Source of the DNA: Maribellus sp. YY47
GTDB lineage: Bacteria > Bacteroidota > Bacteroidia > Bacteroidales > Prolixibacteraceae
DNA: 64,000 bases
Direction of reading: 5' to 3'
NCBI RefSeq assembly: GCF_023111095.1
Contig: NZ_JALGYW010000025.1
Location: forward strand, 1 to 64,000
How positions within the stretch are numbered: the first letter of the stretch is position 1; each line of letters begins with the position of its first letter. The notes under the pieces were generated by a model. The model did not search any database and was not told the origin of the DNA. It worked only from the letters and a program-made list of their open reading frames with translations. This document shows, piece after piece, positions 432 to 61,140 of this stretch. Both the position numbers and the translations under genes were made by a program.

Positions 432-833
432 ATGACAAGCAGCAAGCCCAAGGTAATTAAAGACTATAACAAACTTGATAAAGATCTGCAACAGCAGATC
501 AAGCTAATTTATGCAGACGGATTCGCCGATAACCTGATCCATTTCTTTGACAAAAACGGACAGAAAATTACTGTTCTTCCGTTTGAAACAGAGGATAAGT
601 ATTACATGCTACGCATGACCGAAAACGAAGCCGTTGCACTGGTTGACGAGGACGACGACTACGATGATGAAGGCTTCCTGAAGGATGAAGTAAAACAGGA
701 ATACGAAGACAAATACTCGGAACTCGACCATATCGCTGATAAGCTAAATGATGATGAGGATGTTCCGGACGATGATGAAGACGAAGAAGATGATGATGCT
801 GATGAAGACGAAGGAGACGAAGACGATTTTTAA
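432..833 (+). CDS. Acidic conserved hypothetical protein (133 aa)
   Basis: A small cytoplasmic protein with no signal peptide or membrane segment. Residues 1-70 look folded (a KVIKDYNKLD start, then a beta-rich stretch). From about residue 72 to the end it is dominated by Asp and Glu, finishing in an almost purely acidic tail. Proteins like this recur in Bacteroidetes genomes, sometimes under a doubtful primase label; I do not recognise a proven function. The acidic tail may bind basic proteins or mimic nucleic acid (inference). It stands alone, followed by a strong terminator and convergent with yqeY. Confidence 0.75.
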   Translation: MTSSKPKVIKDYNKLDKDLQQQIKLIYADGFADNLIHFFDKNGQKITVLPFETEDKYYMLRMTENEAVALVDEDDDYDDEGFLKDEVKQEYEDKYSELDHIADKLNDDEDVPDDDEDEEDDDADEDEGDEDDF

Positions 834-909: not shown

Positions 910-1359
910 CTATCCTAACAGTTCTTTTACTTTTGCTGAAATATCTTTTCCGTCAGCCTTTCCGGCGAGCTTTTTGGAAGCAATGCCCATCACTTTCCCC
1001 ATATCTTTCATCGAAGTGGCACCTACTTCTTCTACAATTGCCTTCACCGCTTCAGTCAATTCTTCGTCCGACATTTTGGCGGGCAGATATTGTTCAAAAA
1101 CGGCTACCTGCAGCATTTCCTGCTCATAGAGATCTTCCCGGCCCTGTTGCTTAAAAATAGCAGCAGCATCGCTTCCCTGTTTGGCCAGTTTTGAAATGAT
1201 CTGCAAAGCTTCCTCGTCGGTAAGATCTGCACCGGCACCTTTGGCGGTTTTGGCTTCCAGCATTACTTTTTTGATTCCGCGAATGGCTTCAAGCTTTTCC
1301 TTCTCGCGTGCTTTCATCGCCTCCTTGATATCGTTGTTGATTTGATCGAATAATGACAT
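910..1359 (-). CDS. yqeY: GatB/YqeY domain-containing protein
   Basis: A 149-aa protein of the YqeY family, related to the tail domain of the GatB subunit of aspartyl/glutamyl-tRNA amidotransferase. The family start (MSLFDQINNDIKEAMKAREK), the central KAREKEKLEAIRGIKK helix and the MKDMGKVMGIASKKL segment near residues 117-131 are all present, and the length is normal. The role is poorly defined; a tRNA-related function is inferred from the GatB similarity. It sits 14 bases after ftsZ2 as the last gene of the cell-wall cluster, its usual place in Bacteroidetes. Confidence 0.92.
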   Translation of the reverse strand: MSLFDQINNDIKEAMKAREKEKLEAIRGIKKVMLEAKTAKGAGADLTDEEALQIISKLAKQGSDAAAIFKQQGREDLYEQEMLQVAVFEQYLPAKMSDEELTEAVKAIVEEVGATSMKDMGKVMGIASKKLAGKADGKDISAKVKELLG

Positions 1360-1373
1360 AACGTTTGTTTTTA

Positions 1374-2762
1374 TTAATCTACTTTATCGTGTAAATAACT
1401 ATTACGGTCTGAAATCTGGTTGTTCCGGTTCACCGAATATTTCGATGGTTTCTTCTGAAACTTTGGATCGTTCATCCTGATCTGGCGACGCCGGTAGGCA
1501 GGTATTTTGTCGAGGTCATCCATATCTTCCTCGCTTAGCGACGAAAAATCGGAGATATCCAGTGGTTGTTTTTCCTGGGTTGTACGTTTACGGCTCGTAT
1601 TAGGATACAGGTTCTCAAATTCCATATCCTCAATTTCGCGTTCTTTTTTAATATCGAACTCAAAGGTTTTCTGACCAGCGCCATGGCCTTGAGCGTGTTT
1701 TGCATGACTTGATGCATCGCTTTCCGAAGTGGCATCGTCCGATAAATAGACCCGTTCTTTTTGCTGACTGTTTTCATGCGTTCCGGAAAGAATGCCGTTT
1801 GGGAATCCGGTGGCAATCACTGTCACCGAAAGTTCCTCATCAAGGCTTTCATCAAAGCCGTTCCCCCAGATCAGGTCGGCATCAAATCCGGCTTTATTTT
1901 GAATATAATCGGTTATTTGCCCGATTTCGGACATGGTGACTTCCTTTTCTCCCGAAGTAATATGAACCAGCACATTTCGTGCTCCGCGAATATCGTTATT
2001 GTTCAGCAAAGGAGAATTGAGTGCCAGCTCCACTGCTTCTTCTGCACGGTTGGGTCCTAACGAAACTCCTGTTCCCATCACGGCCATACCGCTTTTGCGC
2101 ATTACGGTTTCGACATCGGCAAAATCGACGTTAATATAACCGGGCACGGTGATGATCTCCGCAATCCCTTTAGCGGCCGTAGACAGAATGTTGTCGGCCC
2201 TCAAAAATGCTTCAGAAATTCCAAAATCGCCATACATTTCACGAATCCGCTCGTTATTGATCACCAACAGCGAATCCACGTATTTTTCCAATTCTTTGAT
2301 GCCCTCGTAAGCCTGTTTTATTCTTCGCCGTCCTTCGTTTCGGAAAGGAATGGTTACAATCGCCACGGTCAGGTATCCTTTTTCGTGACAGGCCTGTGCG
2401 ATTACCGGCGCTGCACCTGTTCCGGTACCACCGCCCATTCCGGCAGTGATAAATACCATTTTAGTGTCCTTCTCCAGCGCTTTTTTTACGTCTTCAATAT
2501 TTTCGATGGCAGCCTGCCGTCCTGTTTCGGGTTTATTCCCCGCGCCCCGTCCTTCAGTAAGTGTAGCGCCAAGCTGCACCCTCCGGCGGATCGGACTGTT
2601 TTCCATTGCCTGAGCATCGGTGTTGCAAATCATATAACCTACATCACGGATTCCATGCTCGTGCATGTGATTAACGGCATTTCCTCCGCCTCCACCAACT
2701 CCTACAATTTTTATTACCGTTCCCGGTTCTTGCTCCAGATTAAAATTTGCCAGTTTCTCCAT
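1374..2762 (-). CDS. ftsZ: Cell division protein FtsZ, second copy
   Basis: A tubulin-like GTPase that polymerises into the division ring. The GTP-binding loop GGGTGTG lies at residues 110-116 and the catalytic T7 loop NVDFAD at 211-216; both are canonical. The globular domain ends near residue 325, followed by a roughly 95-aa hydrophilic linker. A conserved-type tail peptide, IPAYRRRQIR, lies at 420-429; in other FtsZ proteins this region binds FtsA. Unusually, 33 basic and polar residues follow it. It lies 28 bases downstream of the other ftsZ in the same orientation and is complete (462 aa). It is the copy that best matches ordinary Bacteroidetes FtsZ in its tail. Confidence 0.95.
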   Translation of the reverse strand: MEKLANFNLEQEPGTVIKIVGVGGGGGNAVNHMHEHGIRDVGYMICNTDAQAMENSPIRRRVQLGATLTEGRGAGNKPETGRQAAIENIEDVKKALEKDTKMVFITAGMGGGTGTGAAPVIAQACHEKGYLTVAIVTIPFRNEGRRRIKQAYEGIKELEKYVDSLLVINNERIREMYGDFGISEAFLRADNILSTAAKGIAEIITVPGYINVDFADVETVMRKSGMAVMGTGVSLGPNRAEEAVELALNSPLLNNNDIRGARNVLVHITSGEKEVTMSEIGQITDYIQNKAGFDADLIWGNGFDESLDEELSVTVIATGFPNGILSGTHENSQQKERVYLSDDATSESDASSHAKHAQGHGAGQKTFEFDIKKEREIEDMEFENLYPNTSRKRTTQEKQPLDISDFSSLSEEDMDDLDKIPAYRRRQIRMNDPKFQKKPSKYSVNRNNQISDRNSYLHDKVD

Positions 2763-2790
2763 TTTCCAGTCTTTTAAGGGTTAAGTGGTG

Positions 2791-4101
2791 TTAATCCAAC
2801 GATTGGTCATCTTCATCAAAAAACTTGCTCAAACCAAAGTTCTTAAAGAACCAGTTATCCACGTTCGATTCAGTCACCGGCTCATCCCTTTTGCTTTTTT
2901 CCTTCTTCTCTCGCTTGGCCTTTTTTTCTTTTTTTCTGTCATACTCCTGCCGGGGAGGCCTGACAATAATAGTTTCTTCAGTATCCGAATTGTCGACGAT
3001 GTGTTCCTCTTCTTCCTCCTCATCGCGATTCGAGAAATCGAAGCTCACAAATCCTTCAGTTTCATTTTCATCTTCCTCCTCCAGATCAAATTTCTCCGGT
3101 TCCTGAACGGGCTGCATTACCCGGTTCGGATTGGTTACAAAACCGGTGGCCAGAATGGTAACGCTGATCCGGTCGCCCAAGCGATCGTCGTATCCGTTAC
3201 CCCAGATAATATCAGCTTCCTGGCCGGCTTTTTCCTGCAATGCTTCAATAATTTCGCCGATCTCTCCGATCCTGATTTCTTCACTTCCGGAGATGATATT
3301 GAGCAGAATATTTTTAGTGCCGAAAATGTCGTTGCTGTCGAGCAGCGGCGATTCCAAAGCAGCCTGCACCGCATCCATAGCGCGTCCTTCGCCGGTTGCA
3401 AACCCGGTTCCCATAATGAAAACGTCGCTTTTGTGCATTACAGTATGCACATCGGTATAATCGATGTTCACATTTCCGTGAACCGTGATGATTTCGGCAA
3501 CTCCTTTTACAGCCGTCGAAATAATATTATCGGCCATTTTGAAGGCTTTGCTCGCCGGCAAATCGCCATAAATATTGTGCAGCCTGTCGTTGCTGATCAC
3601 CAGCATACTGTCGACATATTGTTTTAGCTTCTTGATGCCTTCCTGTGCCTGATCGTAGCGTTTACGACCTTCGGCCGGCGACGGAATGGTAACCACTGCA
3701 ATGGTCAGAATATCCAGCTCGCGGGCCAGACTGGCAATTACAGGTGCTGCACCGGTCCCGGTACCGCCGCCCATTCCGGCAGCAATAAAAAGCATCTTTG
3801 TATTTTCCTGCAGAACCTTTTTCAGGTCTTCATAATTTTCGCGGGCTGCTTCTTCCCCCATTTCGGGCCTGTTCCCTGCACCTCGTCCTTCGGTTAGCGT
3901 AACTCCTAACTGTATTTTTACGGGTACCGGGCTATTTTCCAACGCCTGTGCGTCGGTATTACAAATAATGTAGTCAACCCCTTTAATGCCTTCTTCGTAC
4001 ATGTGATTGACCGCATTGCAGCCAGCACCTCCCGCACCTATCACCTTAATTATGGAAGATGTTGCTTTTGGAAATTGAAAGTTTACGAATTCTTCGGCCA
4101 T
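2791..4101 (-). CDS. ftsZ: Cell division protein FtsZ, first copy
   Basis: A second full-length FtsZ (436 aa) directly after ftsA, the normal ftsZ position. GGGTGTG lies at residues 111-117 and the T7 loop NIDYTD at 212-217, which keeps the N-x-D-x-x-D pattern, so GTP binding and hydrolysis should be intact. The globular core ends near residue 322. The linker (about 323-405) is first very acidic (DEEEEEE run) and then very basic ([16 protein letters not shown]). The last ~30 residues ([18 protein letters not shown]) lack the PAYxRR-type peptide seen in the second copy. The two copies are clearly paralogues, not a recent identical duplication. This copy probably interacts with different partners at its C-terminus (inference). 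Confidence 0.95.
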
Positions 4102-4112
4102 AATATCATTAT

Positions 4113-5396
4113 TTAATTTAATTCTGCGTCTGAACCATCGGTATCAAAAAGGTTGAGCGCGCCCTGCACTACATCCTTAAAAAGCGGTGCAAAACGACGT
4201 TCCTTTTTCTTGCTGCTCCTCACCTGTGTCCGTTCCGAAATATTTCCGGATGAACTCAGCACAAGCTTTAAAGCTCCCAGGGCGGTAAAAAGTTCAGGAT
4301 TTTTAAATTCTTCCTTGCGATTTACGGGATGAATAACCGCGTGAGCATTTCGCGCATCCATGGCAGTTTTGAATTTTACCAACGCCACCATATTGTCGAG
4401 TTTTGCCGTACCGCCCGTAATCACAATTCCGGAACCGAGGTTACTTTCCATTCCCGATTTTTCAATCTGAACATTTACACATTCGATGATTTCCTCGAGG
4501 CGTGCCTGAATAATGTAGGCCAGGCTTTTAAAGGAAATATCGCGGGGTTCCCAACCGTTTTCGCCGGCGATGGTCACCACTTTCTGCTCGTCGGCGAAAT
4601 CGCCCATTGCCTGCCCGTATTTTACTTTTAACAGTTCTGCCTTTTTCAGAAAGATCGAGCATCCCTCTTTGATATCGTTCGTGACTACTTGCCCGCCAAA
4701 AGGAATTACGGCAGTATGTCTTAAAATACTGTCCTGATAAACGGCGATATTTGTAGTTCCGGCTCCAAAATCCATGACAATTACGCCCATTTCTTTTTCT
4801 TCGGAACTTAACACAGCTTCCGAAATGGCCAGCGAAGCATGAACGATTTCGCCCAGCTCCACTCCGGCTTTGTCAAAAACCAGGTTCAGGTTGTTCACGT
4901 ATTGCGTAGGCATAACCACCAGCTTAAAGTTGGCTTCTATCTTCCGACCCGTGGTGCCCACTGGTTTTTCCACTTCGTGCTCGTCATCGATCATGTACGA
5001 AGTAGGAATCACTTTCACGACTTTGTAATCTTGCTGAATCTCCACCCTTTCGGCTTCATCGAGTAAACGCTGCACATCGGAAGCGGTCACAAAACCTTCG
5101 CCCGAGGTAAGTGAAGTAGTCCGGTAATCGATGGTTCTCATTTTTGATCCGGCAAAAGCCACATGCACCACTTCCGGCCTCTCTTCCAGCTGATTTTCGA
5201 GCAGATTGAGCAAATCGCCAAGAGCATCAGCAGCTTCCTCAATATTCACAATCACCCCCCGTTTTATTCCTTTAGAGGGTATTTGAGCTGTACCTAAAAT
5301 TTCCATTTTACCCAGCTCCGTAAGTTTACCCGCCAGCGCCACCATTTTTGACGTGCCCAGGTCAACAACCACCGAAAAATTCTGTTTTGAAGCCAT
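4113..5396 (-). CDS. ftsA: Cell division protein FtsA
   Basis: An actin-like ATPase that tethers FtsZ filaments to the membrane. The N-terminal phosphate-1 motif (VVDLGTSKMVALAG, residues 10-23), the phosphate-2 motif (VIVMDFGAGTTNIAVY, about 205-220) and the adenosine motif (GIVITGGTAKLDNM, about 323-336) are visible. Length 427 aa is typical. The gene starts 2 bases from the ftsQ stop and ends 11 bases before the first ftsZ. With two ftsZ genes downstream, FtsA may have to choose between two FtsZ tails. Confidence 0.95.
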   Translation of the reverse strand: MASKQNFSVVVDLGTSKMVALAGKLTELGKMEILGTAQIPSKGIKRGVIVNIEEAADALGDLLNLLENQLEERPEVVHVAFAGSKMRTIDYRTTSLTSGEGFVTASDVQRLLDEAERVEIQQDYKVVKVIPTSYMIDDEHEVEKPVGTTGRKIEANFKLVVMPTQYVNNLNLVFDKAGVELGEIVHASLAISEAVLSSEEKEMGVIVMDFGAGTTNIAVYQDSILRHTAVIPFGGQVVTNDIKEGCSIFLKKAELLKVKYGQAMGDFADEQKVVTIAGENGWEPRDISFKSLAYIIQARLEEIIECVNVQIEKSGMESNLGSGIVITGGTAKLDNMVALVKFKTAMDARNAHAVIHPVNRKEEFKNPELFTALGALKLVLSSSGNISERTQVRSSKKKERRFAPLFKDVVQGALNLFDTDGSDAELN

Positions 5397-58470: not shown

Positions 58471-61140
58471 ATGAAGTTATTCCTTAATGTTCTGCTGATT
58501 GTTTTCGTTACAGGCCTGTCACTGAGCGGCACAGCACAAAGTAAAAAAGATAAAAAACAGCAAGCCAAACACCTGAGCGCCTTCGAACAGGAAACACTAA
58601 CCGACGATAATTTGCCGGTATTGATGCCTTTTAACCGATGGATCGATCCGGCAGGAGAACAGCTTTATTTTGGCGATTCCAATCAGGAAAACCATGCGCT
58701 CGATTGCGCTGCATCGCCTGACGGAAAGTGGGTGGCCGTTGAAGGACGTTATTCCATCGTAATCATTTCAACCGAAAAAAACAAAATTGCCGAACGAGTA
58801 ACTTTGAAAGATTTAACCGGAGAAAGTGTGATGAATACTTTTTCAGGAATCAGCTGGCTCGGCAACGAACTATACGTAAGCGCGTCGGGAAGAGGAAAAT
58901 CGTATGTAATAAAAACTGTGTGGAATGGCAGGAAATTGCAGTTGGCTGAGAAATACAGTTTTGATGCCGTGGCACCTGCGTCTTCAGCCCTTCCCAACGA
59001 ACTGACAGTTCAAAAAGAAAAAGGGTCAACCGTATTTTACGTGGCTTTGAACGGCAATAATCAACTGGTAAAGCAAAACGTTGAAACAGGAGCTGTTTTA
59101 TGGACCGCAGCTACAGGAGTTGCACCGTATGGGGTTGTTAAAACTGCCGGTAAAATATATGTAACCAACTGGGGCGGCTCTGTTCCCGACGAAAACGACA
59201 AAAACGTGGCAGGCGTACCGTGGGGATCGGCAAAAGTGGATCCGGTAACAGGTGCTACCCGTGAAGGAACAATTTCGGTTTTCAATCCGGAAACCGGAAC
59301 ATTAATAAATGAAGTTAAAGTGGGTTTACATCCAAACGATATCGTCGCCAGCCCTGACGAACGTTTTCTTTACGTGGCAAACGCCAACAGCGACAATGTA
59401 TCGGTCATTGATACAAAAACCGACAAGCTTGTTGAATCCATTCCGGTAAAACTGGGAGACGAAAAGAACCCTTACTTTGGTGATTCTCCTAACGGATTGG
59501 GAATCACTTCGGATGGAAAAACACTTTACGTTGCCAACGGAATGGACAATGCACTGGCGGTCATCGAACTCGGAGAAAATGCTTCATCAACATCCAAATC
59601 AACTGAAAGTAAGCTCACCGGTTTTATTCCTACCGGAGCCTACCCAGGCGGAGTTTGTATTTTGAACGACTCTCATTTGTACGTGCCCAACATTGAAGCA
59701 GAAGGTGCCCGTATTTCAAGTGTTTCGGAAGAAAGCGGGCAAAAATCGTACAATAGCCACCGGATGATGGCTTCAGTTTCGGTTATTCCGGTTCCGGATA
59801 AAGCACAACTGGCCCAATACACAAAAAAAGTAGAAACGAATAACCAATATTTTCGAATTGCACTCTCCAAAAAACTTCCAAGAAAAAATGTGGAGCCGGT
59901 GCCGGTTCCTGCCCGAATCGGAGAACCTTCGGTATTTAAACACGTGGTATACATTATCAAGGAAAACCGCACCTACGATCAGGTTTTGGGAGATATGAAA
60001 GAAGGCGACGGAGATCCTTCGCTTTGCAATTTTGGAGAAGAAGTAACACCGAACATTCATAAACTATGTCGTGATTTCTTACTGCTTGACAATTTCTACG
60101 CATCGGGTAAATGTTCGGCAGAGGGCCATCAGTGGACCGACATGGCCATGGTTACAGACTATGTGGAAAAGAATGTACGGGCCTGGTTCCGGAGTTACCC
60201 GCATGTACAAACAGATGCCCTGGTATATGCCCCCACCGGATTTATCTGGAACAATGCACTTAACCACGGAAAAAGCGTCCGAATTTACGGTGAAGCCTGT
60301 GTTCCCAAATTTGACAAAGATGCCACCTGGACATCAATTTACAATGGTTTTAAAAACGGGGAGAAGTTTGAATTCACCAACCACACCACGATTGCTCCGG
60401 CAGAGGGAATTTTAAGCAAAAACTACCCGGGATACGACAGCCACAAGATTCCGGACGTTCTGCGTGCCCAATCGTTTATCGACGAATTAAACGAATATGA
60501 AAAAATGGACGGAGACCAGTGGCCGGAACTGTTGGTGGTGGCACTACCCAACGATCATACCGGAGGCACACGTCCGGGTTTACCCACTCCACGCGCCATG
60601 GTAGCCGACAATGACGTGGCATTGGGTCAAATTATCGAAGCCATCTCGAAAAGCCGTTTCTGGGAGAACACTGTCATTTTTGTAACTGAAGACGATTCTC
60701 AGGCAGGATGGGACCATGTTTCGGCTTACCGCACCGTTGGATTGGTTGTTAGTCCGTACACTCGTTTAGGCGCAACCAACCATACCAACTACAACCAGGT
60801 TTCGATGGTACGGACCATTGAACAGATTTTGGGAATTCCGCCCATGAACATTCAGGATGCAACAGCTATGCCCATGTTTGATTGTTTTGGCGCTACACCC
60901 AACAACAGCTCGTTTGTTTCCTTGCCCAATAATATTGCTTTAGATGAAATGAATCCTGATCTGTCCAAACTTAACGGATCGGCATTGCATTATGCCAAGA
61001 AAAGCATGCATCCGCAGTTTGACCGGGTTGATGCAGGTAATGATGCTCTTTTTAACCGCATCATTTGGGCAGCCACCATGGGAGATAAATCGTACCCGGC
61101 AAAATACGCCGGAAAAGACGACGACGATGACGACGATTAA
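58471..61140 (+). CDS. Secreted beta-propeller / phosphoesterase fusion protein
   Basis: An 889-aa exported protein. Signal peptide 1-23 (ending GTAQ). Residues ~60-450 form a YVTN/YncE-type beta-propeller with repeats such as DERFLYVANANSDNVSVIDT and GKTLYVANGMDNALAVIEL. Residues ~490-850 are an alkaline-phosphatase-superfamily phosphoesterase domain (VVYIIKENRTYDQVLGD; DNFYASGKCSAEGHQW; VTEDDSQAGWDHVSAYRT). The protein ends in a run of seven aspartates. It probably acts in the periplasm or at the surface; the substrate is unknown. Confidence 0.88.
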   Translation: MKLFLNVLLIVFVTGLSLSGTAQSKKDKKQQAKHLSAFEQETLTDDNLPVLMPFNRWIDPAGEQLYFGDSNQENHALDCAASPDGKWVAVEGRYSIVIISTEKNKIAERVTLKDLTGESVMNTFSGISWLGNELYVSASGRGKSYVIKTVWNGRKLQLAEKYSFDAVAPASSALPNELTVQKEKGSTVFYVALNGNNQLVKQNVETGAVLWTAATGVAPYGVVKTAGKIYVTNWGGSVPDENDKNVAGVPWGSAKVDPVTGATREGTISVFNPETGTLINEVKVGLHPNDIVASPDERFLYVANANSDNVSVIDTKTDKLVESIPVKLGDEKNPYFGDSPNGLGITSDGKTLYVANGMDNALAVIELGENASSTSKSTESKLTGFIPTGAYPGGVCILNDSHLYVPNIEAEGARISSVSEESGQKSYNSHRMMASVSVIPVPDKAQLAQYTKKVETNNQYFRIALSKKLPRKNVEPVPVPARIGEPSVFKHVVYIIKENRTYDQVLGDMKEGDGDPSLCNFGEEVTPNIHKLCRDFLLLDNFYASGKCSAEGHQWTDMAMVTDYVEKNVRAWFRSYPHVQTDALVYAPTGFIWNNALNHGKSVRIYGEACVPKFDKDATWTSIYNGFKNGEKFEFTNHTTIAPAEGILSKNYPGYDSHKIPDVLRAQSFIDELNEYEKMDGDQWPELLVVALPNDHTGGTRPGLPTPRAMVADNDVALGQIIEAISKSRFWENTVIFVTEDDSQAGWDHVSAYRTVGLVVSPYTRLGATNHTNYNQVSMVRTIEQILGIPPMNIQDATAMPMFDCFGATPNNSSFVSLPNNIALDEMNPDLSKLNGSALHYAKKSMHPQFDRVDAGNDALFNRIIWAATMGDKSYPAKYAGKDDDDDDD

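Follow-up and report, generated by a model that had tools for sequence, protein, structure and literature searches.

The window, by which we mean the whole stretch of 64,000 nucleotides of Maribellus sp. YY47 that was analysed, holds on its minus strand the end of a dcw cluster with the gene order murC-ftsQ-ftsA-ftsZA-ftsZB-yqeY. The label ftsQ is given by position alone; that gene has no family match. The original prediction had described two adjacent ftsZ genes on the same strand, 28 bases apart and in their native dcw cluster. This is confirmed by the open reading frames (Table 1): the pair is flanked by ftsA and by a yqeY-like gene, and the latter recurs as a neighbour in most Prolixibacteraceae loci that extend far enough. 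Tubulin and FtsZ_C domains were found in both copies, which we call FtsZ-A and FtsZ-B. Both exceed the curated cut-off (295.2 bits) of TIGR00065, the FtsZ equivalog model, membership of which does not itself require a docking peptide; 42/42 members of the FtsZ-A alignment also match it (E<=0.001). A search of the organism's own genome returned this pair, with no third copy and no extra ftsZ at a second locus outside the dcw cluster, and one ftsA above the TIGR01174 cut-off.

Table 1. Features of the tandem ftsZ locus; positions are counted from the first letter of the window.
Feature	Positions	Strand	Description	Basis
ftsA	4113..5396	(-)	Upstream neighbour with its own amphipathic C-terminus	TIGR01174, 294.8 bits
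ftsZ-A	2791..4101	(-)	ftsA-proximal copy, 436 aa; FtsZ core, K-rich variable linker, no C-terminal docking peptide	ORF; TIGR00065, 359.3 bits
FtsZ-A Ser141 codon	3679..3681	(-)	Phe at this place in B and single-copy rows	
FtsZ-A T7 loop	3451..3468	(-)	N-I-D-Y-T-D, residues 212-217	
FtsZ-A C-terminal peptide	2812..2862	(-)	Residues 414-430 (17 residues); conserved, amphipathic, FtsA-like	
ftsZ-A/ftsZ-B gap	2763..2790	(-)	28 bp	
ftsZ-B	1374..2762	(-)	Downstream copy, 462 aa; FtsZ core, linker, C-terminal docking peptide	ORF; TIGR00065, 367.4 bits
FtsZ-B docking peptide	1485..1505	(-)	IPAYRRR, residues 420-426; canonical type	
FtsZ-B extreme C-terminus	1377..1406	(-)	RNSYLHDKVD; conserved, found in single-copy FtsZ too	
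yqeY-like gene	910..1359	(-)	Downstream of the pair	PF09424

Because the gaps between ftsA and ftsZ-A (11 bp) and between the two ftsZ genes (28 bp) are short, co-transcription of the three genes is suggested, in agreement with the co-expression that had been proposed. Promoter-like and terminator-like matches occur in the region at chance numbers (8 against 7.6 and 7 against 6.6, respectively). One weak promoter-like match lies inside ftsZ-A on the coding strand (3737-3709), and ftsZ-B could therefore have a separate promoter. The RNA around the gap between the two ftsZ genes folds no better than its own shuffles.

The genome was placed in Prolixibacteraceae by named relatives, the nearest being Maribellus species, with 92% identity for FtsZ-A. 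It had been proposed that relatives in this family be checked for the tandem, and an adjacent ftsZ pair is present in 57/60 sampled genomes, our own included. Two of the other three have no match, and in the third the only match begins at base 277 of the contig. Named carriers include records of Draconibacterium, Maribellus, Mangrovibacterium and Mariniphaga. The tandem is thus a trait of Prolixibacteraceae and not a local oddity. Its recurrence also rules out an assembly artefact.

The rest of the order was surveyed with 117 genomes from 107 families. Six genomes have an adjacent pair or triplet; they belong to the families that we denote by the codes f13, f19, f28, f63, f77 and f96, with triplets in f28 and f63. 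One copy is found in 104 genomes and no match in four; the remaining three are either fragmented or show part of a second copy at another place. Within f19 the pair is present in 11/12 genomes, the twelfth being 67% complete and without a match, and within f96 in 13/13, together 24/25. In f13, f28, f63 and f77 a pair or triplet is seen in one genome each, where f63 and f77 hold a single genome and the counts for f13 and f28 are likewise of one genome each. Whether all Bacteroidia carry the pair had also been raised as a question, and most of the class does not: among 144 genomes from other orders of Bacteroidia there is no tandem and no complete second copy (a match is missing from one of them, and in another the gene is in two pieces). 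There is likewise no tandem in 46 genomes of other classes of the phylum. In two of these 46 (G379 and G393, members of a single family) a second ftsZ lies on another contig.

Several unusual arrangements were met in the course of this survey. Two loci from two families of the order, one genome each (L101 and L102), have three tandem ftsZ genes after ftsA; copies one and two have hydrophobic ends without a docking motif, and the last copy has the motif. The match to the third copy of L101 was extended by the search across one upstream stop. Divergent FtsZ-like genes off the dcw cluster occur in three loci, each in a single genome: L108 (G017, 2862-3974, 370 aa), beside a 209-aa ORF without a Pfam match; L109 (G048, 2285-3271, 328 aa), two genes downstream of a WYL-domain gene; and L106 (G132, 1890-2666, 258 aa), with a match to the Tubulin domain and none to FtsZ_C.

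The two copies differ most plainly at their C-termini. A motif of the type PA[YF]xR near the C-terminus is the mark of a canonical FtsZ that docks on FtsA. Tails were counted with identical ones merged and with the divergent extra copy of L108, end-cut tails and fragments of under 250 aligned residues set aside. The motif is present in 0/47 tails of Prolixibacteraceae FtsZ-A vs 45/46 of FtsZ-B, in 0/29 first or middle copies and 24/24 last copies of other families, and in 55/67 single-copy FtsZ. Tryptophan followed by a hydrophobic residue is found in 46/47 family A tails and in 19/29 first or middle copies of other families, and in none of the 46 B tails, 24 last copies or 67 single copies. 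In complete pairs and triplets no docking motif is seen in the ftsA-proximal copy, which carries a short hydrophobic peptide at the C-terminus or close to it; the last copy has the motif in all complete arrays examined but one. Both exceptions within the family come from that one genome (L112), whose A copy has no W yet is strongly amphipathic and whose B copy lacks the motif.

The end of FtsZ-A follows the consensus W-F-x3-F-x(2-4)-[FL]-F-[DE]. Across 28 family rows W417 is kept in 27, F418 in 25, F422 in 26 and F428 in 27, and mean entropy is 1.32 in the tail vs 2.49 in the linker. An ending of the form [VIAP]D is shared by 46/46 B tails and 56/67 single-copy tails, and in B as well as in many single-copy Bacteroidia FtsZ a stretch resembling N-N-[SP]-[YF]-L-H-D-x-V-D comes after the docking peptide.

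Judged by its sequence, the FtsZ-A tail resembles the membrane-targeting tails of FtsA. The maximal hydrophobic moment in the last 30 residues is 0.61 for A tails, near the 0.64 of FtsA (p=0.3) and above the 0.38 of B tails (p=3e-15) and of single copies (0.38). Tested against its own shuffles the moment of a single tail is often not significant (p=0.28 for FtsZ-A of the window), and the group tests took the place of these weak tests. Some differences from FtsA are seen: mean hydrophobicity is 0.70 in A tails vs 0.59 in FtsA tails (p=0.0002), and the first copies of other families depart slightly from FtsA in hydrophobic moment (p=0.03).

An HMM trained on 52 FtsA tails from single-ftsZ loci, with ten loci (L058-L066 and L105) left out, gave a median of 9.6 bits for family A tails (own shuffles 1.1) and 6.7 bits for the A-type tails of other families (1.3). 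The medians were 0.7 for B tails (0.2), -0.2 for last copies (-0.5) and 0.4 for single-copy FtsZ (0.0); a small excess over shuffles is present in B tails (p=0.018) and single copies (p=0.0013) also. A set of 298 C-termini was drawn from proteins predicted in the window and in twenty 20-kb pieces of this genome; FtsZ-A ranks first in the set with 15.9 bits, the next having 9.3. The FtsA of this genome is absent from the top 12, and scores above 6.9 bits are reached by only 3/28 FtsA tails of Prolixibacteraceae and by 14/24 FtsA of other tandem families. Since few FtsA of the family are recognised and the genome's own falls outside the top 12, this generic HMM is not a sensitive detector of membrane tails. 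With an HMM made from Prolixibacteraceae FtsA tails, FtsZ-A is second of the 298 at 9.0 bits (next 6.6), the first being the genome's own FtsA, itself in the training set. The family HMM scores A tails at 7.7 vs 0.5 for their shuffles and B tails at -0.5 vs -0.9.

The tail could instead be a protein-docking motif, so that a divisome partner (FtsA, a Zap-like protein or some other), and not lipid, recruits FtsZ-A. It is short (about 15 residues), with W and F as anchors and an acidic end, features frequent in linear motifs, and a W/F-rich peptide could bind protein instead of lipid. However, the tail is like those of FtsA in both profile and hydrophobic moment, it comes after a K-rich linker, and its exact residues vary between families while the hydrophobic pattern is kept. 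We regard recruitment by a protein partner as unlikely.

The cores of the two proteins appear competent for catalysis, as had been expected from their motifs: GGGTG and N-x-D-x-x-D are kept in 52/52 distinct A and 53/53 distinct B core rows of the family. Position 141 of FtsZ-A is S (46 rows) or A (6) in 52/52 family A rows. The equivalent residue is F in 53/53 B rows, in 67/67 single-copy rows and, among the 7 first or middle and 5 last copies compared from other families (f13 excluded), in 7/7 and 4/5, respectively. Other near-fixed differences of A (I at 213, V at 198, F at 228) are in or near the T7 loop. A141 aligns with the F at index 136 of chain 2vam_A, in a P-F-x-x-E-G loop which we take to touch the nucleotide; a literature search on Phe136 found nothing. 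Given the change in this loop, FtsZ-A of Prolixibacteraceae may differ in GTP turnover besides anchoring.

The same substitutions have a bearing on another possibility, namely that FtsZ-A is attached to the membrane but works outside the Z ring, either as a regulator (for instance a modulator of FtsZ-B turnover) or as a separate polymer (for instance a cell-shape filament). The replacement of F by S/A at 141 in the P-F-x-x-E-G loop, and those of V by I at 213 and of A by F at 228 in and after the T7 loop, could alter the GTPase rate or subunit contacts. On the other hand, the catalytic motifs are intact in every one of the 52 A rows and A occupies the ftsA-proximal place in the dcw cluster. 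Such a role outside the ring seems to us quite improbable.

Purifying selection acts on A as well as on B. When each was compared with two Maribellus loci, the four dN/dS values were 0.027-0.072 (0.053 for A and 0.040 for B against Maribellus luteus) with dS high to saturated (0.78-5.4); a pseudogene is ruled out on these values. Mean core identity within the groups is 0.70 and 0.71, so the two are similarly conserved. Selection and conservation of this kind could be taken to mean simple duplication for dosage, with the same job for both copies and tails that drifted. But every complete pair examined except L112 shows opposite tail types in one constant order, and FtsZ-A has residues of its own, such as the non-Phe residue at 141 in 52/52 rows, and we give duplication for dosage hardly any credence. 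The original prediction was right in seeing a real and old pair in the dcw cluster; what it missed is that the copies are not equivalent, the upstream one having no docking peptide, an FtsA-like amphipathic end and core changes specific to the family.

That the duplication is old is borne out by a core identity of 54% between A and B in the window; single-copy FtsZ from other families stands at a like distance from A (median 55%, best 61%). A recent duplication is rejected, and there is no trace of gene conversion, since A and B are no more alike in core identity within a genome (mean 0.561, 56 locus pairs) than between genomes (0.557). A tree might have placed one of the copies outside FtsZ; both are inside, and FtsZ-A lies among Bacteroidales FtsZ in trees that hold no plastid sequences. 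Family A and family B each form one clade (support 100/98 and 90/91, in a tree with 10/56 A rows and 10/57 B rows), and none of the best trees pairs A with the B of its own family as sisters. Deep branches are weak, however. Two trees join family A to the first copies in both triplet families (96/85 and 99/91), a grouping absent from the first tree, which included long-branched rows. One tree groups the triplet middle copies with the first copies of f96 and f77 (84/90); the joining of f96 first copies with triplet middle copies is seen in that tree only, unstarred.

These groupings fit an ancestral array of up to three ftsZ genes followed by many losses. AU tests do not reject a single clade of all A-type copies (p=0.28 with 75 rows, p=0.40 with 95 rows); nor do they reject duplication within the family for Prolixibacteraceae A and B (p=0.18 and 0.25), for f19 (p=0.26) or for f96 (p=0.26). 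They are compatible with one origin as well as with several. The tree set was made without nine duplicate loci (L001, L002, L003, L006, L023, L054, L074, L081 and L089), seven loci in which genes are incomplete (L067, L106, L109, L113, L115, L116 and L041, the last with an intact A copy) and the A row of L114, which contains X letters; for the second tree and its AU test twenty rows, mostly long-branched or near-duplicate, were left out.

What might such a pair do? The reading that we favour, and hold to be somewhat more probable than not, is that of an old pair of paralogues with two modes of membrane attachment, direct for FtsZ-A and through FtsA for FtsZ-B. FtsZ-B would be an ordinary FtsZ whose C-terminal peptide docks on FtsA, and FtsA would supply the membrane-targeting helix. 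FtsZ-A would be an FtsZ GTPase without the docking peptide; its own FtsA-like amphipathic tail, behind a basic linker, leads us to infer that it fixes directly onto the inner membrane. As products of a presumed single operon, the two probably assemble together, or else in parallel, within one Z ring, as the neighbouring genes and intact FtsZ cores suggest. If roles are divided in this way, FtsZ-A would give anchoring or nucleation independent of FtsA, and FtsZ-B would recruit FtsA and the downstream divisome. Neither SepF nor ZipA turned up in this genome: there is no PF04472 (SepF) match at E<=0.01, where the control found SepF in 7/14 genomes, and no ZipA match.

An FtsZ-A-like protein is workable in principle, since according to PMC5979038 a membrane-targeting sequence in FtsZ gives dynamic rings in vitro without FtsA. 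In that engineered protein, too, a membrane-targeting sequence replaces FtsA; FtsZ-A would be its natural counterpart, though standing beside a copy anchored by FtsA. More speculatively, some Bacteroidales may build a two-component Z ring. One FtsZ would anchor itself by an FtsA-type membrane tail, either acquired from the neighbouring ftsA or shaped after it, and the other would rely on FtsA; an ancestral tandem array with two or three ftsZ genes would have persisted in some families and disappeared from most. We put this broader scheme forward only tentatively and would not be surprised to see it fail.

We know other examples in which FtsZ copies share out such tasks. In chloroplasts, as passages of PMC11285052 describe, FtsZ2 keeps a docking peptide, for ARC6, and FtsZ1 of land plants does not dock but has a C-terminal end (RR/KLFF in angiosperms) that binds membrane. 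The likeness of FtsZ1 and FtsZ2 (FtsZB and FtsZA in red algae) to the present pair is that one copy has a docking peptide and the other has none. Here, however, the pair is bacterial, stands in tandem in the dcw cluster and presumably goes back to a separate duplication, and the docking partner would be FtsA instead of ARC6. The same passages describe the Arabidopsis FtsZ1 motif as an amphiphilic beta-strand, whereas the FtsZ-A tail resembles the helix of FtsA in sequence.

In Odinarchaeota, according to passages of PMC12583498, one FtsZ of the FtsZ1/FtsZ2 pair tethers itself by an amphipathic helix and the other is tethered through an adaptor by way of its C-terminal tail, so that, as may be the case here, tethering is split between a self-anchored copy and an adaptor-bound one. 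Theirs is an N-terminal helix with SepF as adaptor, in contrast to the C-terminal tail and putative FtsA adaptor of the present pair, and SepF was not found in our genome. Mycoplasma FtsZ with membrane-targeting sequences (Dutta et al 2025, as cited in PMC12583498) is similar in being a bacterial FtsZ with a terminal stretch that binds membrane; the cited passages concern N- or C-terminal ends of FtsZ and mention no tandem of specialised paralogues. A few bacteria, too, have two ftsZ, and the part of PMC9871819 that deals with them puts the additional copy outside the dcw cluster. In Prolixibacteraceae both copies are adjacent inside it, and the pair is an exception to that statement. We found no description of this Bacteroidota pair among the matches listed in the open-access literature, a body that leaves preprints and most subscription journals outside.

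What makes FtsZ depend on an adaptor, and what purpose a second FtsZ serves, are questions that have been addressed mainly in plastids and archaea. In the present pair, docking and membrane binding seem to fall to separate, neighbouring FtsZ genes, and a pair that is stable and occurs in bacteria open to culture would allow each mode of anchoring to be studied by genetics apart from the other. If this reading is correct, split tethering of a dual FtsZ arose in plastids, in archaea and here, and bacteria have a natural counterpart of the engineered membrane-targeted FtsZ, parallel to the plastid and archaeal systems.

Two further genes of the window may be mentioned. Just past the dcw cluster there is a 133-aa ORF (432-833, plus strand) with a very Asp/Glu-rich end and no Pfam match. 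On the same strand, at 58471-61140, an 889-aa protein is encoded that has matches to a beta-propeller (YNCE/lactonase-like) and to a phosphoesterase.
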